DNA from: a virus
IMG/VR virus record: IMGVR_UViG_3300046008_001259
Span: 1-22,926 of that record
Direction: 5' to 3' (one strand)
DNA length: 22,926 nt
The notes beneath the pieces were generated by a model. That model searched no databases. It was not told where the DNA came from and saw nothing but the letters and a program-made list of their open reading frames with translations. Of this stretch, positions 917 to 15,531 are shown in pieces. Within the stretch, counting starts at the first letter, position 1. Every line of letters starts with the position of its first letter. A program made the position numbers and the translations under genes.

Positions 917-2005
917 TTAATCTTCTGATTCTACAATATCAGTAATGTCTGCTTTTTCGTTCCATTCACTGTTATCTTCTACAGTTTTGTAATTACCTTC
1001 TCCTAATATACTAGCCCATTCATGTGAATGTTCTTTTTTATATTTAGCAACTTCTTTAGGATCATCAGGTATAAAACCATGTACTGTACTGATAACTGTG
1101 TTTTTTGTAGTGATTCCATTTACGTGATTTTTATCACAAGCAACTTTAGTTCTTAAAGCAAATTCTACATCTTTACCTTCTTTTTGTGCTTTAATTTTTG
1201 ATGTACCACTGTTAGTGACATTACCAAAAGTTAAACATAATGAAGCATCATAATAGAATGTATTACCACCTTTATTAGTCATTCTCGGTTGTGAGAATAC
1301 GTTTTCAGCTGGTGCTACTCCAGTTTTATTGATAATTAAGAATGTATTTGTATATTTACTTTCTTCTTTTCTAGATAAAATGATTCGTTGATTGATAAAA
1401 TTACCAAATTGAGTTGCAATTGCTCCTGCATTCCACATTGGATTATTTTTACCTTGATCAATACTCATTCTACATGCAATTGAACCTACTGAGTCCCATA
1501 AGAATAATAAGTCATATGGTAAGTTTCCTTTTGCTTGTTCATCTAAAATATCAATAATAAAGTCAGCTACATCTTCAATTGAATTTAATTTTCCTCTATC
1601 TTTATAAATAAAGAATCCATCATAATCAACTAAATTACCATCTTTGTCTTTTATTTCATTCATTTCAAAACCCATTGTTTGCCAATGCTCCCAACTGTGT
1701 TTCATTTCAGTAATAATAAGAACAGGTAATACACCCATTTTCTGAGCTGATACTGCTGCTTCTATAGATGTGGTAGTTTTTCCAGTATTACTACCACCAC
1801 GTACTATATTAATATGGCCCATAGCTATTCCTGGAATCGACAATGCTTCTTGCATTGCAGGTGAAAAAGGAATCCATTTTTGTTCTTTGAACTTTACATT
1901 TCCGCCTAATGATTTCTTCTCTTTGAATTTATTTAAATCAAATTTTGATTTTAATTCTTTAGAGACTGCTTCCATTAACGAATCTTTGTCGTTTGATTTA
2001 GCCAT
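917..2005 (-). CDS. uvsX: UvsX/RecA-like recombinase
   Basis: This 362-aa protein is a RecA-fold strand-exchange ATPase. A Walker A loop GGSNTGKT is at residues 70-77 and a Walker B-like strand LLFLWDS at 167-172. A sequence around residues 95-110 (LIITEMKHSWEHW) precedes the catalytic region, and a Gly/Asn-rich stretch near 240-250 is in the usual place of the DNA-binding L2 loop. Family knowledge: T4 UvsX (about 390 aa) polymerises on single-stranded DNA, displaces gp32 with mediator help, and drives recombination-dependent replication. It lies between a gp32-like gene (15-base gap) and a 5'-3' exonuclease (3-base gap), which supports UvsX over a host-type RecA. The C-terminus is acidic (ITDIVESED). 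The leader before the ATG is A-rich with no clear Shine-Dalgarno. No mediator (UvsY) gene is visible in the window. Confidence 0.9.
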   Translation of the reverse strand: MAKSNDKDSLMEAVSKELKSKFDLNKFKEKKSLGGNVKFKEQKWIPFSPAMQEALSIPGIAMGHINIVRGGSNTGKTTTSIEAAVSAQKMGVLPVLIITEMKHSWEHWQTMGFEMNEIKDKDGNLVDYDGFFIYKDRGKLNSIEDVADFIIDILDEQAKGNLPYDLLFLWDSVGSIACRMSIDQGKNNPMWNAGAIATQFGNFINQRIILSRKEESKYTNTFLIINKTGVAPAENVFSQPRMTNKGGNTFYYDASLCLTFGNVTNSGTSKIKAQKEGKDVEFALRTKVACDKNHVNGITTKNTVISTVHGFIPDDPKEVAKYKKEHSHEWASILGEGNYKTVEDNSEWNEKADITDIVESED

Positions 2006-2020
2006 TTTAGTTTTGGATTT

Positions 2021-2875
2021 TTAGTCTTCGTTTTCAAATAAAGCATCAAATTTATCTGCTTTAGATGTTTTGGCTGGGACTTTTAGTTCGTAATTTGATT
2101 TTTTAGGTGAAGTAGATTTTTCATCTTCCCAAGGTAAGTCATTTTTAACTGCTGTTTTGGTTAATGTTTCTTCCTCCTCAACTTCTTCAACTTCTTCAGT
2201 TGCATCTTCTGGGTTTAACCAATTTTGGAGTAATTCCTTCATTTTGTCAAATTCAATTTTACGTTGTAATTCTAAGATATCAGGTTGTTCTTCTAACCAT
2301 AATTCAATATCATTTTTACTTGCGCTTAATGGAGATGTTTTTGGTTTAATACGAATTGATGATTTTAATCCTTGGCGTCCACCAATATCACCTATTACTG
2401 TTTCAACAGTAAAATCACGACCTTCATTTATATCAGTATAATCACCATAATCTTCATCATCCGCGATTCCTAATAATTGCATATAAATTTCTTTACCAAA
2501 TTCCCAAAGACGAACACCTTTGTCTTCTTCACCTCTTACAATTACTGGGGCAAATACTCTCATTTTTGGTTCTAATTTCTTAGATAGCTTCCAATTTTCT
2601 TTGTCGTTTGTTTTTTGTAATTGTTTTGCGAATTCAACAATTGGATCTTTTTCACCCCAATTTGTAAGTGCATACATAGGGAATTTTGACATACCATAAT
2701 GTACGAATACTTCTTTGAACGGATTAGTTTTGTCTAATTTTGATGGAACAATTCGGATTTGAAATTTACCCTCTTGTTTTGGTTTCCATAAAGACTTTGT
2801 ATAGTCTATTTTTTCTTTTGATTTGCCCTGCGACTGTAAGGCACCCAGTTTGTTTTTGATTGATTTTAAATCCAT
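2021..2875 (-). CDS. gp32-like single-stranded DNA-binding protein
   Basis: This 284-aa protein matches the layout of phage gp32. It has a basic N-terminus (residues 1-33, rich in Lys) that in the family mediates cooperative binding. The OB-fold core spans about 35-215 (KFQIRIVPS, FVHYGMSKFPMYAL, MRVFAPVIVRG, VRLWEFGKEIYMQLLGI). A Glu-rich linker at 221-237 and an acidic end (FDALFENED) follow; in T4 this part docks partner replication proteins. T4 gp32 is 301 aa. The protein contains no cysteine, so the zinc-binding subdomain of T4 gp32 cannot exist in the same form. It would coat single-stranded DNA for the polymerase, UvsX-like protein and exonuclease encoded beside it. The 127-base gap upstream may hold its promoter. 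Confidence 0.88.
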   Translation of the reverse strand: MDLKSIKNKLGALQSQGKSKEKIDYTKSLWKPKQEGKFQIRIVPSKLDKTNPFKEVFVHYGMSKFPMYALTNWGEKDPIVEFAKQLQKTNDKENWKLSKKLEPKMRVFAPVIVRGEEDKGVRLWEFGKEIYMQLLGIADDEDYGDYTDINEGRDFTVETVIGDIGGRQGLKSSIRIKPKTSPLSASKNDIELWLEEQPDILELQRKIEFDKMKELLQNWLNPEDATEEVEEVEEEETLTKTAVKNDLPWEDEKSTSPKKSNYELKVPAKTSKADKFDALFENED

Positions 2876-3002: not shown

Positions 3003-3461
3003 TTAGAGATCTACGATCTTATAGATTTTGGTATTCAATTGTTTAACGTCTCCGTGTTGAGTTAGCAATACACAATTTTTATAATGTTGCCAGTCTATAC
3101 GATAAGATGGATCAACAACACCATTGTTTAATTTTTTAATTAAATCATTAAGTGCGTTTATTGTATATAAAGTATTTGATTCTTTTTTACGATGAACTAA
3201 TATTGTGTTTGAAGGAATATTGTCTACATTACCTTGTTCTATGTTGTAGGTGATAACGTATTCATTTGTACTCTTAACAAAAAGTACAAACATTTTCTTA
3301 TACATAATTGTATAAGTAGTTGATAAATGAATAATTAGTTCATCTAATGAGTTCTGCTGTGTAAACGTAGCATATAGTCTGTTATTCATAAAGTCACCAT
3401 CAGTTGTAAAGTCGTACTGATTATAAATATCGACTGGTGATTCAAACGCGATTTGTTCCAT
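3003..3461 (-). CDS. hypothetical protein, 152 aa, downstream of DNA polymerase
   Basis: I do not recognise a family. The predicted product is a small soluble mixed alpha/beta protein without signal peptide, membrane segment or obvious catalytic motif. The middle contains a hydrophobic beta stretch (MFVLFVKSTNEYVITYNI, about residues 57-74). The C-terminal half has a helix followed by beta strands ending in a basic/hydrophobic tail. The start codon lies 3 bases after the polymerase stop, so the two are almost surely one transcript and probably translationally coupled. The placement between polymerase and gp32-like gene suggests a replication accessory role; that is inference from position only. 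Confidence 0.75.
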   Translation of the reverse strand: MEQIAFESPVDIYNQYDFTTDGDFMNNRLYATFTQQNSLDELIIHLSTTYTIMYKKMFVLFVKSTNEYVITYNIEQGNVDNIPSNTILVHRKKESNTLYTINALNDLIKKLNNGVVDPSYRIDWQHYKNCVLLTQHGDVKQLNTKIYKIVDL

Positions 3462-3464
3462 ATA

Positions 3465-4739
3465 TTATTTCATATTACCATAATTATGGCCCTTAGTAGT
3501 TTTTGTTTTTAAATTATATTTTGTAAATATTTGTTGTATTTCTTCTAATATACTATCATTTTCTGCGTAGTCAAGCAATATTGAATCATAAGTGTAAAGT
3601 ACTATATTTGTTGTTTTACCTTTTAACAATTTAATTATATCCCACAATATCAGTACATTTGTTGATGTTTCTAGATTTTGTAATGTATAGTTAAATAATT
3701 TTTGGGGATTCATGTCTTTTATTTTATTTGTAAGTTTATGTCCTGAAATTGGGCATTCTATAAATCCATTTGTTTTAAATTCATTCCATAATTTATCTAT
3801 GTGTTTTTGTATTAGTTGAAAGTATTCTATATGTTGATACTCTTTATATACACCCCCATACAACTGTTTAAACATTAATATTTTTGCTTCACTTACTTCA
3901 ATATTCGCTTCTTTAGCAAAGTATTGATATGGTGTTTCTCCATTAAAGTCATAATTTACTAAGTGACTAGCAAGTACTGGATGGTATGCACTTATATCTA
4001 TTTCAACAAAGCAATCGTTTTCTGGTATAAATGCTTCTCTACATCCATCATCCTTTTTTAATGCTGCAAAATTGATGCCGTTAAAGCTATTGGAAGGCCT
4101 TCCGGTTGCAGTATATAAATTATATTGTGTGTATATTGTATTACCTTGTATAGAAAATAATTCATTGTTTGGTTTAAAAAATTGATTAAATACATCTTTA
4201 TTTATTTTAATTCCATTTCTCTCAATTGCAGAGAATATGTTTGTTAATTTAGTACAAAACTTTACATTGCCAACCTCAACACAATATTTTTTTACATTAT
4301 TATACACTATTTCACACTTTTCATAATGCTTAACTAAAGGTATAATTGTATTTATATCATCTCTGTCACCATGTCTTTGATAAAAAAAGTCATAAGCAGG
4401 AGTGTTTGGCTCAGTAAACTCAGGTGTATTAAATGATATGTCTATTACATTCTTTACAGGAAAAGCATATATAAATGTTTTTCTATCTCGCACATATATT
4501 TCATTATATGATGCTAGTAAACGGTTAATAAACGTTTTCTTCAACGTTAAGGCTTCAGTATGGTAAAGACATATTATATAGCCTTTATCGTTGTTTAACG
4601 GTTTAATATACAGTAAAGACACATAATTAAATGATGGATGAACGTTGTCATTAAAATATATTGGTTCTACAAATACTTTATCATATCCTTTATTGAATAA
4701 TTCTTCTAATTGTTCATTAGTTTCGACAATGTAAAACAT
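3465..4739 (-). CDS. compact family A DNA polymerase
   Basis: This 424-aa protein carries the palm and fingers of family A (Pol I-like) DNA polymerases. TATGRPSNSFNGINFAAL (about 210-227) corresponds to the TxTGRxSS...NLQNIP region. Motif A is EIDISAYHPVLASHL with catalytic Asp248. The O-helix is AKILMFKQLYGG, with Lys286-x3-Phe290-x3-Tyr294-Gly. Motif C is YTYDSILLD with Asp385. The Arg that normally lies four residues before the O-helix Lys is Val282 here. The N-terminal 170 residues show no clear 3'-5' exonuclease ExoI motif, and the protein is much shorter than Pol I or T7 polymerase. It begins just after a strong terminator and heads the replication block. A weak AAAGG precedes the ATG. 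It likely replicates the phage genome or fills gaps; which of these is not decided by the sequence. Confidence 0.85.
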   Translation of the reverse strand: MFYIVETNEQLEELFNKGYDKVFVEPIYFNDNVHPSFNYVSLLYIKPLNNDKGYIICLYHTEALTLKKTFINRLLASYNEIYVRDRKTFIYAFPVKNVIDISFNTPEFTEPNTPAYDFFYQRHGDRDDINTIIPLVKHYEKCEIVYNNVKKYCVEVGNVKFCTKLTNIFSAIERNGIKINKDVFNQFFKPNNELFSIQGNTIYTQYNLYTATGRPSNSFNGINFAALKKDDGCREAFIPENDCFVEIDISAYHPVLASHLVNYDFNGETPYQYFAKEANIEVSEAKILMFKQLYGGVYKEYQHIEYFQLIQKHIDKLWNEFKTNGFIECPISGHKLTNKIKDMNPQKLFNYTLQNLETSTNVLILWDIIKLLKGKTTNIVLYTYDSILLDYAENDSILEEIQQIFTKYNLKTKTTKGHNYGNMK

Positions 4740-4784: not shown

Positions 4785-4832
4785 TAACTTAAAAAGTAAA
4801 AGCACCCTAGATAGCGAGTCGTCGGGTGCTTT
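4785..4832 (-). terminator. factor-independent terminator ending the late block
   Basis: On the minus strand a 9-bp perfect stem AAAGCACCC/GGGTGCTTT (4824-4832 and 4799-4807) encloses a 16-base loop and is followed by TTTTACTTTTTAAG. It lies between the 211-aa gene and the polymerase gene and separates the late virion block from the replication block. On the plus strand the stem is not followed by a T run, so it works in the direction of the genes. Confidence 0.85.
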
Positions 4833-4869: not shown

Positions 4870-5505
4870 TTATTCTACTCCAGCACCTATAATATTTCCT
4901 ATTTTACTATATGCCTGGGTTAGATTTATTAAATTTTCATTTTCCCCTTTATCTAATTTTTTTAATTTAACTAAATCATTTAAAATTAAAAAGAATAAAT
5001 CCTCAAATTCATCACTGTATAATACGTCTTTAGGATTTTGTTTAGCTATATCCCACATTTTTTGCCCTAATTCTGTGCAAAATTGAACTATATCTTCTAA
5101 TTTCCACTTTTCAGTATAAAATTCCTCAGGATTATTCATTAATAAATTTTTAATATTAAATTTTTTATATTGTAAATATTCTTTATTTAATTTTTCTAAC
5201 TTATTTAATACTGATACAGGTAATTCTTTATTTAATGAAGTTGCTTGGACCATTCCAAATGGCACTTCAATTTCTTTTTTACTATCTAATAATTTTATTT
5301 TATATGTTTTATTATTGTCGTTAATATCAATAATGGTCCCAGCACCATATTTAATTACGGCTACATTAGATCCAATATCTATACCTTTTGAAGTATCATT
5401 TGGATCAAAATTTTCTATAGAATTTAATAAATTATCTAAATAATCTTCTGATATTATTTTACGAATTTCTTCTTTGATGATTTGTTTTAATTCTGATTTT
5501 TTCAT
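4870..5505 (-). CDS. 211-aa protein with N-terminal amphipathic helix and SH3/KOW-like segment
   Basis: The function is not recognised. The N-terminus (MKKSELKQIIKEEIRKIISE) is a highly charged amphipathic helix of a kind I recall at the ends of many otherwise unrelated proteins of marine and freshwater T4-like phages. About residues 45-85 (GSNVAVIKYGAGTIIDI followed by KTYKIKLLDSKKEIEVPF) look like a five-strand SH3/KOW-type barrel that binds nucleic acid or protein. The rest is helical (LNKLEKLNKEYLQYKK, then LEDIVQFCTELGQKMWDIAKQ). It is the last gene of the late block, starting 6 bases after the 214-aa gene stop and followed directly by the hairpins and terminator. Position suggests a virion or assembly protein. 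Confidence 0.7.
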   Translation of the reverse strand: MKKSELKQIIKEEIRKIISEDYLDNLLNSIENFDPNDTSKGIDIGSNVAVIKYGAGTIIDINDNNKTYKIKLLDSKKEIEVPFGMVQATSLNKELPVSVLNKLEKLNKEYLQYKKFNIKNLLMNNPEEFYTEKWKLEDIVQFCTELGQKMWDIAKQNPKDVLYSDEFEDLFFLILNDLVKLKKLDKGENENLINLTQAYSKIGNIIGAGVE

Positions 5506-6158: not shown

Positions 6159-9100
6159 TTATAACGTTTTAAGCATTTCAATTAATTCTTTTTGAGGAAA
6201 TACATCACTTTTATCTTTTCTAACTGAGTTGTGAGAGTATAAACCTGGTACACCTGTTAATGCGTCCTGACTTAATCCTTTGTTTGGTGGAAATAAAGCA
6301 TCGTAAGATTTTTGACCTAACCATTTAACAGGAATTTTGTGTTTTGCAGACCAGCTTAATATTAAATTTTTAACTGACGCTATTTGTGCAGGGGTATATT
6401 TATGATAATATAAATGATCTTTATATGCTTTAGGTTTTCCATTTATGTCTACAGCAGTTGCTACTTGATCTCTAGGGATTTCTGTTCCTCCAGAATAAAA
6501 TTTACCATTTCTTTCTGTTAAAAAACCATAAGCTGTTATTTCAACTGATAAGCCTATATCTTGAACTAATCGTCCTGCTCCAGCATGATACGAAACGTAT
6601 TTATCATCAAATAAATATTCAATATGACCTCCCTTATCAATTACAGTATGAGTAGAAGCGGGATCATTTAATGCTGTTCTTAAATTAAATACATCTACTG
6701 TTCCTTTTCCTTTATCAAAAAGTTGAGCACCAGCTGTATGATGGAGGTAAATTTGAGTTTTAACAGTTGTCCGGTTACTACCAAAAGCACTAGTACTAAA
6801 ATCAAATCCACTTGGAAATGTTTTTACAGTTGGTACTGCAGTTTGAGTAGTTGAAGTATTGGTAGAAGTAGCAACTTCTGCAAATTTACCTTTTGAAATA
6901 ACTAATGATTCTATTTTAGTGAACCATTTATTGTCTGCTATATCATGAGTAACTCCTTTAATTAAAAACTCAACATTTTCAGGGTAATTTGAAGGTAAAA
7001 AATCAGTATCAACAGTAAATTTACTATATATTTTCATTCCTGATAATCCATCCATTGTTAATGACATATTGAATGGTATAAATCCTGTGCCTGTGGCTAA
7101 TGATTTTTGTTGGGCTACATCATTTGGATCTATTCCTTTTTCAAGAAGACTAACAGTATATTTTTTAGAAGCAATTTGGTCTTCCATTTGTTTAATATTA
7201 AGAATAGTACCTTTATAAGCGTCTACATCTGAAATATTCATTGTGGGTTCAGATGGAAGATCACTTAATTCTTCTAACCAATCGAAATAATCTGATAAAG
7301 TTTTGTCGTATCTTGTTTTAAGAGCATCTAATTCTAATGATTGAGTAGTTAAAGTATTTACAATATTTTGTTGTTGTTCTTTTGCTTTTTGTTTTAATGC
7401 GTATGTATCTAAAATTTCTTTCTTATATCTATCACTTAATCCAACATTTAATTTAGATAATGCTGTTGATTCAGATCCTACTACTGATCCATTTGCTGCT
7501 GCTCCAACTGTTATCATTGTAGCTAATTCTGGGGTAAGTTCTGTTGTAAAACTAAAATCTTTAATAAATGAAGCATGACTAGCTCCATTATATGTTGACA
7601 TTGAACTAGCAGGATCTGATGTATTGTATCCATATAAATCAAATGAGGCTAATTTAGTAGATAAATTAACTTGATTTGGGTAAAATCCATTGATTTTAGA
7701 CATTACTTCATCATTATTGGGTAATGGGTTTGCATCTATAATTTTAATTGTATTAGTAGATTCATCTATTATTGGTTCTAAAGCATTTAAACTACCTAAT
7801 CCCTCATTTACACCATCTAGTATTCCTTTTAATAAGTCAAATAATGATGTTTTGTTTTTATTATCTTTTAATTCATCAATTTTATTTAATATAAATGCCA
7901 TATTAACATATATATTCATTATATTACCATATTCTAACCCTTGAGATGTATCACTATAATCTGGGTCAATAAATGGAGAACAATTTCCTGAGAATGGTAC
8001 ATCTTCAAATGTTTTCCAAAATAATCCCTGTATTATATTTATTGTTCTTCCAACAATGCAAAGTCTTGGATCTACTCCTACTTGCCATTTATACGCATAC
8101 ATTAAATTTGTATTCTGGTCGTAATCAATATTTAATAATGGAGAATAGTCTTTTAAACTAGAATCAGCTGGGACACATTTAGGTATTAAATAATTCTGAA
8201 TATATGATAAAAATGTACCTAATCTAATATAATAAGTTTCATCAGCACCATCTTTATCGTCCCACGGAATAGAAATAGCATCTACAACTTTTATAATATT
8301 GCCTTTCTTATCATAAACTTTAAACATATCCGAAGATATATTTTCTGATATAAGAGGTGCAAGGTATTCATCTATATAATGGGTATCAAATACTGCGTCC
8401 CATCCCCATTTTGCAAATCCGCCTATTTTTGTTAATGTATTATCGAATTTAATACTTTCGTTTTGCTCTTTAATAGTATTAGCTCCTATATCTGAAAATG
8501 AAAAGGTTATTGATTTATCGGTTTTATCACCTTTTACTCCTACTCCCGATACTAATTGATATTTGCAAAAGTAAAAGAATTGTCCTATTGAACTTTTCTT
8601 AGCATACCAATCAATTAAATCTCCATCATCCTCAGGTTTTTCTTCTGGTTTTTTAGTAGCAGGATCGGTATTTAAAGTATCTTCTATAATAGCATTAATC
8701 TTTAAAGACTCAATTATATCTCCACTACTTATTAAATCTAAAGTAATATCATAACTTCCATCTTTTAAAAATGACCAACTAAAGTTTTTTACTTTAGCAA
8801 ACATTGCATCATAATTTCCTACTGATTTTGCTCTATTTTTATCTATTTTTTTAAGAAAACTATTATATGATTCACTACCATTTAAAAAATCATAAGCTAA
8901 ACTATTATTAGTATTAGTTTGTAAAACCCCTTTATTATCAAAATACATTGAATTTCCCCATTCTAAAAGAACTGAGTATCCTAAGCGTAAATATAAAACA
9001 TCAATGATTTCCATTTGTGCTTTATTAAATGCTTTCATTTTAACAGTTGCCTGTCTTAAAGACCCTCTATTTTCATGAGTAACAGATACGGTTTGAATAC

Positions 9101-9473
9101 CCATCATAGGACTAATACCAAATTCGTTTCCTCCTATTCCATAGGCGTTATTACCTCCTAAAGGATCATTTTGAAAATTTATTCCTCCTCTTTGTTCGTT
9201 TGTAGTTGAATCTACAGTACCATTAAATAGGACATATTTTCTAGCTAACTCAGACCCAGTAAGACCTAGTTTTTTTATAGTTGGGTTATTAATAGCTTCA
9301 ATTTTATCTATATTTGTAGATGAAATTAATTTACACCAAGCTGTATTAGCATTTAAATATATTATTTCCTCAGATGATCTTGTAGTATTTGAATATCCTG
9401 ATCCATAAACTTTTTGACGTTGTTCAATTTGTTTTATAATCCCATCTGGAAAGCCTTCTCCTAATAAATTCAT
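6159..9473 (-). CDS. baseplate hub protein fused to a C-terminal peptidoglycan amidase
   Basis: This 1104-aa protein joins a hub part and an enzyme. Residues about 120-220 (GIQTVSVTHENRGSLRQATV, FNKAQMEIIDVLYLRLGYSV, LLEWGNSMYFD) have the look of gp27-like hub proteins of T4-related tails. A coiled-coil stretch lies at about 690-790. After a Thr/Ser-rich linker, residues about 905-1104 form an Amidase_2 (N-acetylmuramoyl-L-alanine amidase) domain. YLHHTAGAQ has His911/912, YVSYHAGAG has His963, and YSHNSVRKDKSDVFP has His1081, Lys1088 and Asp1090, matching the family's Zn-ligand and catalytic pattern. It would cut the stem peptide from muramic acid as the tail crosses the cell wall, the job done in T4 by gp5 lysozyme. 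There is no signal peptide, consistent with a virion enzyme. It lies between the LysM wedge gene and the 214-aa gene. Confidence 0.85.
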   Translation of the reverse strand: MNLLGEGFPDGIIKQIEQRQKVYGSGYSNTTRSSEEIIYLNANTAWCKLISSTNIDKIEAINNPTIKKLGLTGSELARKYVLFNGTVDSTTNEQRGGINFQNDPLGGNNAYGIGGNEFGISPMMGIQTVSVTHENRGSLRQATVKMKAFNKAQMEIIDVLYLRLGYSVLLEWGNSMYFDNKGVLQTNTNNSLAYDFLNGSESYNSFLKKIDKNRAKSVGNYDAMFAKVKNFSWSFLKDGSYDITLDLISSGDIIESLKINAIIEDTLNTDPATKKPEEKPEDDGDLIDWYAKKSSIGQFFYFCKYQLVSGVGVKGDKTDKSITFSFSDIGANTIKEQNESIKFDNTLTKIGGFAKWGWDAVFDTHYIDEYLAPLISENISSDMFKVYDKKGNIIKVVDAISIPWDDKDGADETYYIRLGTFLSYIQNYLIPKCVPADSSLKDYSPLLNIDYDQNTNLMYAYKWQVGVDPRLCIVGRTINIIQGLFWKTFEDVPFSGNCSPFIDPDYSDTSQGLEYGNIMNIYVNMAFILNKIDELKDNKNKTSLFDLLKGILDGVNEGLGSLNALEPIIDESTNTIKIIDANPLPNNDEVMSKINGFYPNQVNLSTKLASFDLYGYNTSDPASSMSTYNGASHASFIKDFSFTTELTPELATMITVGAAANGSVVGSESTALSKLNVGLSDRYKKEILDTYALKQKAKEQQQNIVNTLTTQSLELDALKTRYDKTLSDYFDWLEELSDLPSEPTMNISDVDAYKGTILNIKQMEDQIASKKYTVSLLEKGIDPNDVAQQKSLATGTGFIPFNMSLTMDGLSGMKIYSKFTVDTDFLPSNYPENVEFLIKGVTHDIADNKWFTKIESLVISKGKFAEVATSTNTSTTQTAVPTVKTFPSGFDFSTSAFGSNRTTVKTQIYLHHTAGAQLFDKGKGTVDVFNLRTALNDPASTHTVIDKGGHIEYLFDDKYVSYHAGAGRLVQDIGLSVEITAYGFLTERNGKFYSGGTEIPRDQVATAVDINGKPKAYKDHLYYHKYTPAQIASVKNLILSWSAKHKIPVKWLGQKSYDALFPPNKGLSQDALTGVPGLYSHNSVRKDKSDVFPQKELIEMLKTL

Positions 9474-12732: not shown

Positions 12733-15531
12733 TTATTGAAGTTTATATGTATTCATAGCAACAGATGTTCCAAATTTAGTACCATTCATACTATTTTCTA
12801 CTACTACTGGTTTATTGTTTGATTTTGATGATTCTTGTCGTAATGCTCGTAATTCTTCTAAAAGTGGAGATAGATCTTGTTGTGGTTGTGCTTGTGGTTG
12901 AGAAGAATTGCCTCTATTATTACCTACTTTTATTCCACCATCAGCTCCATACATTGTTTTATCTTTACCCATTAAATCAGTACCTACTTTTATTCCACCA
13001 TCAGCTCCATACATTGTTTTATCTTTACCCATTAAATCAGTACCTACTTTTATAGTACCATCAGCTCCATACATTGCTTTATCTTTAGGATTTAATTTAA
13101 CTGCACCAAATTCACCAAACATAATCGGACCTCCACTTGGATCTATTTCACCATCTTTCATAGATTTTAAAGCAGCATATCCTGCTACTGCGGCCGCAAC
13201 TGCCACTGCTGTTCCTATTCCTAATGTCATAGCAGATACACCCATTAATTCGGCAGCTGCTGTTGCCATAGCTTGGACTAATCTAATTGCCCCCATAGCT
13301 ATATTTTTTACTATTCCAGCTCCTTGAGCTAAAATAGAACCCACTATAGTATTTTCCATAACCATTCTAAATCCAGTTTGTACAGTAGTAGCAACATATT
13401 TAATTAAATTTTTTCCTAAATTCCATCCCTGCATAACCAATTTACCAAGTATGGTTTCTTCCATAGCTGCTCTAATTGATGTAAGAATATTGTTTCCAAA
13501 TAATCTGTTATATTGGTATGTTTGAGCAGCATTTTGTAAACCTAAAGTAGCTAAAATGCTTTGCCCTAAACCTAATTTAGTTGTTTCAAGAGTAGCTTGG
13601 GTTTGGTTTTGAGCTATTTTTGTAGCGTTTTGAGCAATTAAAAATGTATTTATAGCAGTCATTCCTTTAGAAACAACACTCATTCCTTTCATTATACCAT
13701 AAGGAATAAGTAAATATTTCCCCCACTGTATTGTGTATTTAAGTAAAGTACCTATAACTCCTACTATTGGACCCACAATTCCCATGATGTCAGCAAATAC
13801 ATCAAATACAGGCATTAATGGTTCAATTAATGAAACAAATATTTCTTTTAATTTTTCAATTGTTTGTGTAAATCGTTCTTGTACTGATTGTTGTTGAAAT
13901 TGGTTAGCTAATGCTTCGTTTCCTAAACGTTTCTTAGCTTCTTCTACTCCAACTTGTTTTACTAAGTTATCATATTTTTCTTTAGCATTTTCACCTTCAA
14001 CTCCCGATAATGCAACTAATGCTTCTCTATCCATTAAAGATTTTGCTAAATCATCTCTAGTTAATCCAGTTGCTTTAGCAATTGCTTCTTGTTGAATACG
14101 ATTCATTTTAGAAAATTCAGCTGTGCCTCCTACTTGTTGAAGGATTTCTGCTGAAGCACCTGCTATATCACCATTTATGGCTAATAATCTTGCTTTTTCT
14201 AAATTTAAATCTTTACCAGTAATTAATTCGGCTGATAATTCATTAGATATTGATGATTCAAAATCTAGTAAACCTTGAGATATGTGATCGGCTTGTTGTA
14301 AATTAATACCAAATTGTTTTGCTTTAAATGCTGCTTCAGCTAATTTTTCTGTTGTTCCTCCAATAGATAATTTAATAGAATCAGAAGTGTTAGCTACCTC
14401 TTTTAAAAGTTGTTTAGCATTTATTGTTAATTTATTTTGACCATTTAATGCTGCTACACTACCTAAAAATGATGCGGTATTGTCTTCTAAGTTTCCTCCA
14501 GTAGCTAAAGTTAATTTTTGAATACCAGCTAATTCATCATTAGTATAACCTGCTTGTTCTCTTAATTTAGTAAATGTTATTAAGTCTTCTTTATTTAATC
14601 TAGCATTAGAACCTAATGTTTGACCAACAGCCATCATTGATTCTTGTAAACCTTTAGTTGTAACAGCAACATCTCCTGACAGATTGGCTATGTCTGTTAA
14701 TTCCATTCTTAAATTAGCAGCACCATTGTAAGTTAAATCAAAACCTTTAGCTAGATCACCAATAGCACTATCAACAGATTTAAGTGTAGCTATTATTTCT
14801 GTAAATACAAATAAAGCTATATTTGCTGGGTTTGTTAAACTTTTAAATACTTGACCTGAAAGATTACTTATTCCTGCTGATAGTCCTTTTATACTACTTC
14901 CAGTTCCTTGTGCTGCTTTTTGAGCAGCTTCTAAAGCACTGCTAGTGTCAATTATATCACCTAATATAGGGATCTTTTTTATACCTTTTAAAACACCACT
15001 AAATACTCCTAATTTTTTATTAGTTTCTTCTAATGCTTGTTCTATTCCTTCAACTTCTTGTTTTTGCTTTTGAAGTGGTTCAATAGCAGCAAATGATAAT
15101 TCCTTAAAGTCGTTTTGAAGTTTATTAATTAAATTTTGTTTTTCAATCCTTTCATTTTCACTTATACTAGCATCTTCAGATAATTGTTTTTGGAGACTTC
15201 CTATTCGAGTAGTTAAAACTTGTTGTTCAGCTATTTTCTTATTTATCTGGTTTTGGATTTCTTTAGAAGATATTGATTTTTCATTTATTTTTACTTGATT
15301 TTTTATTAAATCTTCAGTAATTTTACTTAATGATTTTACAGATCGATTTATATCTTTATAAGTTAAATCAAAAGATCTTGCCTCAGAAGAACCTTCTTTA
15401 ATTTCATCAACTATATCAGATAATCTACTAGTAAGAGCCCTAAAGCCTTCTTCTAAAGCACCAGTGATTTCACCAATTTCTTCTAATGATTTTTTTGCAT
15501 CATCTGCTTTTTTCTTTGAATCGTCAGCCAT
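12733..15531 (-). CDS. tail tape measure protein
   Basis: This 932-aa protein has the tape-measure layout. A long charged coiled coil occupies about residues 1-180. Central helical segments include IQKLTLATGG, LLDFESSISNELSAELITG and IDTSSALEAAQKAAQG. Hydrophobic segments lie near 580-640 (MPVFDVFADIMGIVGPIVGV) and near 770-800 (GIGTAVAVAAAVAGYAAL). It is the longest tail gene before the baseplate block and directly follows the tail chaperone pair, the conserved gene order. Using the usual 0.15 nm per residue, it predicts a tail near 140 nm. Residues about 814-870 hold a repeat DKxMYGADGxIKVGTDLMGK in nearly three copies, encoded by a 60-base DNA repeat. Inside the virion it sets tail length and is ejected before DNA. 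Confidence 0.88.
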   Translation of the reverse strand: MADDSKKKADDAKKSLEEIGEITGALEEGFRALTSRLSDIVDEIKEGSSEARSFDLTYKDINRSVKSLSKITEDLIKNQVKINEKSISSKEIQNQINKKIAEQQVLTTRIGSLQKQLSEDASISENERIEKQNLINKLQNDFKELSFAAIEPLQKQKQEVEGIEQALEETNKKLGVFSGVLKGIKKIPILGDIIDTSSALEAAQKAAQGTGSSIKGLSAGISNLSGQVFKSLTNPANIALFVFTEIIATLKSVDSAIGDLAKGFDLTYNGAANLRMELTDIANLSGDVAVTTKGLQESMMAVGQTLGSNARLNKEDLITFTKLREQAGYTNDELAGIQKLTLATGGNLEDNTASFLGSVAALNGQNKLTINAKQLLKEVANTSDSIKLSIGGTTEKLAEAAFKAKQFGINLQQADHISQGLLDFESSISNELSAELITGKDLNLEKARLLAINGDIAGASAEILQQVGGTAEFSKMNRIQQEAIAKATGLTRDDLAKSLMDREALVALSGVEGENAKEKYDNLVKQVGVEEAKKRLGNEALANQFQQQSVQERFTQTIEKLKEIFVSLIEPLMPVFDVFADIMGIVGPIVGVIGTLLKYTIQWGKYLLIPYGIMKGMSVVSKGMTAINTFLIAQNATKIAQNQTQATLETTKLGLGQSILATLGLQNAAQTYQYNRLFGNNILTSIRAAMEETILGKLVMQGWNLGKNLIKYVATTVQTGFRMVMENTIVGSILAQGAGIVKNIAMGAIRLVQAMATAAAELMGVSAMTLGIGTAVAVAAAVAGYAALKSMKDGEIDPSGGPIMFGEFGAVKLNPKDKAMYGADGTIKVGTDLMGKDKTMYGADGGIKVGTDLMGKDKTMYGADGGIKVGNNRGNSSQPQAQPQQDLSPLLEELRALRQESSKSNNKPVVVENSMNGTKFGTSVAMNTYKLQ
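12921..13090. repeat. 60-bp tandem repeat inside the tape measure gene
   Basis: 12921-12980 and 12981-13040 are identical 60-mers, and 13041-13090 is a third, partial copy with a few changes. The period is a multiple of three, so copies encode 20-residue units and change in copy number would keep the frame. The identity of two copies suggests recent duplication or ongoing slippage or recombination. Confidence 0.95.

Follow-up and report, generated by a model that had tools for sequence, protein, structure and literature searches.

A thumb-truncated family A DNA polymerase, divPolA1, with an invariant active site and a small conserved neighbour in a phage replication cassette

Besides a regular DNA polymerase, some phages encode a divergent family A DNA polymerase (PolA) that was named divPolA1 by Yutin et al. 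(2024, Virol J 21:200; PMC11348598). There the group is reported from 14 phages, including Flavobacterium phage immuto, and is described as having a truncated thumb, an inactivated exonuclease domain and conserved palm residues. The article places divPolA1, and not the regular polymerase, in the conserved replication gene cluster, and describes the neighbourhood of the regular enzyme as functionally mixed; this placement could point to a role for divPolA1 that is more central than an accessory one. From the Rheinheimera barbaviruses it describes divPolA2, a further PolA that lacks both the exonuclease and a normal thumb and is found beside a family B polymerase (PolB) (PMC11348598). In a literature search the name divPolA1 was used only in Yutin et al. 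2024 and its preprint, and a search for thumb-less DNA polymerases found nothing.

Here we analysed a 22,926-bp viral fragment from IMG/VR (the window), which carries T4-like tail and baseplate genes (tail genes being called from sequence reading and synteny with immuto) and a divPolA1 gene followed by replication genes (Table 1). The open reading frame has exactly the limits and the length given in a preliminary description of this DNA, and lies on the minus strand, which was absent from that description. The family A membership proposed there is borne out by the Pol I fold of an AlphaFold2 model, compared using VIA-align and Foldseek, by the alignment to Pol I with hhalign and by the catalytic residues. 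At the Pfam-A gathering score the window protein has no match to PF00476 and is not recognised by Pfam-A, whereas its homologue immuto gp001 passes (42.7 bits vs a gathering score of 34.3). Residues 199-422 match the PHROG family phrog_17, DNA polymerase (E=6.7e-9), the profile of the divPolA1 family matched Klenow among PDB sequences (E=0.0018), and hhalign aligned the family with E. coli Pol I, immuto gp199 and T7 polymerase at E=3e-9 (96%).

Table 1. Features of the divPolA1 locus in the window.
Feature	Position	Strand	Basis and remarks
divPolA1 gene, family A DNA polymerase, thumb-truncated with degenerate exonuclease domain	3465..4739	minus	424 aa, ATG start
Degenerate 3'-5' exonuclease-fold domain, residues 1 to ~126 (boundary approximate)	4361..4739	minus	Structure alignment; no DEDD site
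Interval holding the thumb in Pol I, residues 172-214, cut to ~40 residues	4098..4226	minus	Motif spacing
Motif A, residues 248-253, DISAYH; D248 catalytic, H253 replaces Glu710	3981..3998	minus	Asp and His in 84/84; hhalign
O-helix region, residues 282-296 (V282, K286, F290, Y294, G295)	3852..3896	minus	Conservation, hhalign
Motif C, residues 384-386, YDS	3582..3590	minus	Y384 and D385 invariant; 386 is Ser/Ala
Conserved partner protein of 152 aa, encoded directly downstream; putative ferredoxin-like core	3003..3461	minus	Conserved adjacency, structure model
gp32-like single-strand DNA binding protein (SSB)	2021..2875	minus	PF08804 E=4.2e-11; phrog_1192 E=9e-17
UvsX/RecA-like recombinase	917..2005	minus	phrog_97 E=8.6e-20
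FEN-like 5'-3' exonuclease, cut by contig end	2..913	minus	Open frame; operon position and sequence reading

Directly upstream of divPolA1 lies a 211-aa gene (4870-5505), which occupies the same place in only one related locus and is therefore read as a variable insertion within the conserved gene order. Between the two genes, an inverted repeat at 4799-4832, AAAGCACCC...GGGTGCTTT with a 16-base loop, has T-rich sequence 3' of it on the minus strand (read by eye), and is possibly the terminator of the 211-aa gene. Sigma-70 promoter matches were at chance level, and an Rfam search of the window gave no match. Farther along, positions 6159-9473 encode a protein of 1104 aa from the baseplate region, which has an Amidase_2 domain at its C-terminal end (PF01510, E=2.5e-7), and positions 12733-15531 a tape-measure-like protein of 932 aa in which almost identical tandem repeats (KDKTMYGADGGIKVGTDLMG) lie close to the C-terminus.

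The window protein is a divPolA1 with hundreds of relatives, and not a lone oddity. By tblastn it shares 39.8% identity over 97% with immuto gp001 (E=6e-88), and matches were found in 6 of 50,697 phage records, namely four of Flavobacterium phage immuto (160 kb), Microcystis phage Mel-JY01 (190 kb) and an uncultured 484-kb phage. The match is to divPolA1, a published yet uncharacterised group (PMC11348598). A profile scan of IMG/VR gave at least 575 matching coding stretches, and scans from other members added loci. By best match, the fetched loci were window-like (101), immuto-like (81) or Mel-JY01-like (81), plus the 484-kb phage, in counts to which several scans could contribute the same contig; the 81 immuto-like loci and the window clade align as one family. 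Homologues were absent from plasmid sequences, and the matches to divPolA1 in genome_contigs are confined to six contigs of MAGs, several of them flavobacterial; cellular homologues were rejected, these contigs being interpreted as phage DNA that had been binned with a MAG. The protein is ~400-450 aa long in 256 of the 267 fetched locus proteins, a set that includes contigs fetched twice and in which most of the shorter proteins are cut by contig ends. A truncation or assembly artefact is ruled out by the conservation of both length and sequence across the family.

The AlphaFold2 model, computed from an 82-sequence alignment of the window and IMG/VR proteins, has a pLDDT of 94.5 and a pTM of 0.91. 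Over its full length it aligns by VIA-align with Pol I large fragments at Z 24-27 (347-400 residues), best with M. smegmatis Pol1 and the Bst large fragment (Z ~27, 389-395 residues, 3.5-3.9 Å). Foldseek returned DNA polymerases (E ~1e-17 to 1e-16), and larger PolAs were the best rows of the match list from the BFVD viral library. Model residues 1-424 align with Bst residues 300-876, and this end-to-end correspondence with the large fragments indicates that the N-terminal region is a degenerate exonuclease domain, not a missing one. The earlier statement that residues 1-170 hold no recognisable proofreading motif is thus right as regards the DEDD site, but an exonuclease fold persists there in degenerate form, over residues 1 to ~130. 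Pfam-A found no match to PF01612 in the window protein. For the conservation analysis the fetched locus proteins were reduced to 84 representatives, in which the only positions of residues 1-170 that are acidic in at least 90% are E62 (Glu or Asp in 84/84), D100 (76/84) and E140 (80/84, and Asp in two more). No conserved DxE was found in this stretch, and with so few conserved acidic positions the DEDD site is taken to be absent.

The protein is indeed far shorter than Pol I or T7 polymerase, as had been remarked, but the cause lies in the lost thumb, which had been missed, and in trimmed fingers, whereas the exonuclease fold is kept. The interval between the conserved IERNG and TGR motifs, which in Pol I holds the thumb, as in the Klenow structure, spans 40 residues in the window protein; the corresponding lengths are 126 (E. 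coli), 200 (T7) and 216 (immuto gp199). Among the 84 representatives its median is 41 (range 23-41), in Mel-JY01 it is 22, and the AlphaFold2 model is confident through the shortened stretch. The interval from the O-helix to the Gln is also reduced, with 67 vs 90 residues. Lacking a thumb, divPolA1 might bind DNA poorly or fail to polymerise alone.

Asp248, Asp385, Lys286, Phe290, Tyr294, Val282 and the YDS of residues 384-386 were all found where the preliminary description had put them, and hhalign gives, with E. coli Pol I, the pairs D248-D705, V282-R754, K286-K758, F290-F762, Y294-Y766, Y384-H881 and S386-E883. The residues D248, H253, K286, G295, Q354, E357, N361, Y382, Y384 and D385 are present in all 84 representatives, and Y294 (83/84) and F290 (82/84) are near-invariant, in keeping with the catalytic set that had been listed as retained. 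Motif C is YDS in place of HDE, also as described, and the residue after its Asp is Ser in 43 representatives and Ala in 41. The loss of the O-helix Arg to Val282 is correct for the window protein but does not hold as a family trait, as the Arg754 position is mostly Tyr (61/84) and Val is a minority variant (8/84). The most consistent substitution in divPolA1 had been overlooked: the motif A Glu (E. coli E710) is His in every representative. Since the catalytic Asps and the O-helix Lys are invariant, divPolA1 is probably active, and an unusual nucleotide selection or fidelity, as first proposed, is plausible. The handling of dNTPs could suffer from the substitutions at E710 (His), R754 (Tyr/Val) and E883 (Ser/Ala). 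In a side observation, two loci, L005 (10001-11272) and L007 (10001-11266), encode divPolA1 proteins that are identical up to motif C and strongly divergent beyond it, which suggests a recombinational swap of the C-terminus.

The loss of thumb and exonuclease, together with several altered active-site positions, could also describe a non-catalytic remnant that acts as a scaffold or as a DNA-binding replication factor. We regard this as very unlikely, because none of the representatives deviates at either catalytic Asp, at the O-helix Lys, at the Gln849 equivalent or at the TGR Arg, the Asn845 equivalent is kept in 80/84 representatives, and the gene is under strong purifying selection (dN/dS ~0.1-0.3 among near relatives). 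In family A polymerases Glu710 belongs to the ribonucleotide gate, and this position is Glu in E. coli Pol I, in T7 polymerase and in immuto gp199. Its invariant replacement by His could relax sugar selection at the steric gate and make divPolA1 a primer- or RNA-making enzyme, and an RNA polymerase option was raised for divPolA2 by Yutin et al. (PMC11348598). Such a function is, in our view, highly improbable for divPolA1, considering that F290, which makes up the gate's other half, is retained in 82/84 representatives, that the best structural matches are DNA polymerases, and that a DnaG-like primase is present in 6/6 near-complete records tested, for which reason a primase substitute was rejected.

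Downstream of divPolA1, on the same strand, the genes for the partner protein, SSB, RecA/UvsX, FEN and DnaB follow in this order, which is the same in the window up to FEN; in the immuto cassette the FEN slot is gp006 (PF02739, E=1.2e-34). Counted by tblastn within set distances, in loci with enough flanking sequence, the partner (130-155 aa) was found in 215/227, SSB in 165/193, RecA in 128/128, FEN in 107/128 and DnaB in 81/128, the lower figures being lower bounds. The partner and divPolA1 occur in the identical set of 6 of the 50,697 phage records, and divPolA1 lies upstream of the partner in all 63 IMG/VR partner loci with enough upstream sequence (within 300 nt in 60). The model of the partner has an overall pLDDT of 81.5, with a good core and the first 25 residues disordered. 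No PHROG family matched it consistently and Foldseek gave no significant match; the VIA matches (Z <7) are mostly ferredoxin-like folds, too weak to name the protein, and a few of them, covering more of the model, are polyomavirus T-antigen origin-binding domains.

A PolB or a full-size PolA is co-resident with divPolA1 in 17 of the 18 relatives that reach at least 100 kb, the exception being a 114-kb fragment, and the idea of a sole polymerase of a small phage was rejected for the relatives, since the long ones carry a second polymerase. In immuto this is gp199, a 777-aa PolA with a PF00476 match (E=8e-57), which is probably the replicative enzyme; further immuto-like records also have a full-size PolA, and the other long records have a PolB instead. 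The main polymerase thus varies by clade, whereas divPolA1 is constant. The window itself is a 22.9-kb fragment, and its nearest long relatives, G003 (75% identity), G012 (70%) and G013 (68%), carry PolB; judged from these relatives, divPolA1 is very likely not the sole or main polymerase of the window phage. The opposite assignment, in which divPolA1 is either the main replicative polymerase or a replisome subunit that is essential, with another task for the full-size enzyme, would fit the place of divPolA1 in a conserved cassette with SSB, recombinase, FEN and DnaB, and the functionally mixed neighbourhood described for the regular polymerase (PMC11348598). We nevertheless find it quite unlikely for a protein of 424 aa that has neither proofreading site nor thumb, when the other polymerase is present in 17 of the 18 long records and, in those inspected, has exonuclease and polymerase motifs.

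The PolB of G013, G014 and G003 is a single frame of ~862-866 aa with exonuclease and polymerase motifs, and that of Mel-JY01 has no exo II match to a simple pattern. In 4 of 17 records (G012, G015, G029 and the 484-kb phage) PolB is in two frames or has an in-frame stop. The split frames encode 610 and 306 aa in G029, and 596 and 301 aa in G012 (L297, G012 92000-96500), where the break falls between motif B and motif C, with ~0.7 kb between; Rfam found no intron in L297. A separate proofreading subunit, as in a split polymerase, was rejected, as PF01612 is absent from 18 of 19 records and its single match is immuto gp199; immuto gp090, annotated 'exonuclease', resembles a PD-(D/E)XK nuclease (below the Pfam cut-off). 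An RM378-like split polymerase was likewise set aside: the first 50 kb of RM378 were inspected, and RM378 is not among the tblastn relatives. In immuto (NC_055915, 18607-37015; L024), annotated queuosine/7-deazaguanine pathway genes with DpdA suggest a modified phage DNA that both polymerases would have to copy.

Alongside the computed fold, thumb deletion, invariant active site, gene cassette and second polymerase of the long relatives, we favour, with moderate confidence, a reading of divPolA1 as an accessory DNA polymerase that is active but of low processivity and free of proofreading, and that would serve recombination-dependent replication or the repair of gaps. The enzyme has kept the palm, reduced fingers and the catalytic residues while losing the thumb and all proofreading residues; on SSB-coated DNA it would elongate short 3' ends or fill in short gaps. 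The gene context points to a role in repair and recombination, in which divPolA1 would act during UvsX-driven recombination-dependent replication and repair, and would cooperate with the FEN nuclease of the cassette as the polymerase and FEN domains of Pol I do. The 152-aa neighbour may be a dedicated partner, perhaps holding primer-template DNA in the thumb's stead. A stricter version, an obligate two-subunit split polymerase in which a small non-homologous DNA-holding subunit replaces the thumb, possibly with an altered sugar gate (E710 to His), appears unlikely, if conceivable.

Many environmental phages thus carry a second, proofreading-free and thumb-truncated polymerase, whose active site is under strong selection and which persists as the main polymerase changes between clades, with one small protein travelling along. 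divPolA1 and its partner are a concrete gene pair for probing a new mode of primer-template holding, and also bear on the contribution of an accessory polymerase to recombination-dependent phage replication.

The immuto exemplar of divPolA1 and the window protein are alike in the truncated thumb, the inactivated exonuclease domain, the palm residues, the downstream replication genes and the regular polymerase of the relatives, and we found no structural difference between the published group and the window protein. Relative to the text of Yutin et al. (PMC11348598), which mentions neither the pairing with the 152-aa protein nor the invariant H253, the present analysis adds a much wider distribution, conservation at residue level including H253, counts of the polymerases and primases encoded alongside divPolA1, and its strict association with the small protein. 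By its description in that article, divPolA2 is set apart by an unrelated N-terminal domain and a variable neighbourhood, in contrast to the degenerate exonuclease domain and fixed neighbourhood of the window divPolA1. Immuto gp199 is a family A polymerase like divPolA1, but has a PF01612 exonuclease domain and a full thumb interval. The Pol I large fragments (Klenow, Bst, Taq, M. smegmatis), of which Bst and Taq have a dead exonuclease domain too, share with divPolA1 the fold of the full model (Z ~27) and the catalytic Asp, Lys, Tyr and Gln. divPolA1 differs from them in having no thumb and a fingers interval that is ~20 residues shorter, in the substitutions E710H, H881Y and E883S/A, and in the loss of R754.
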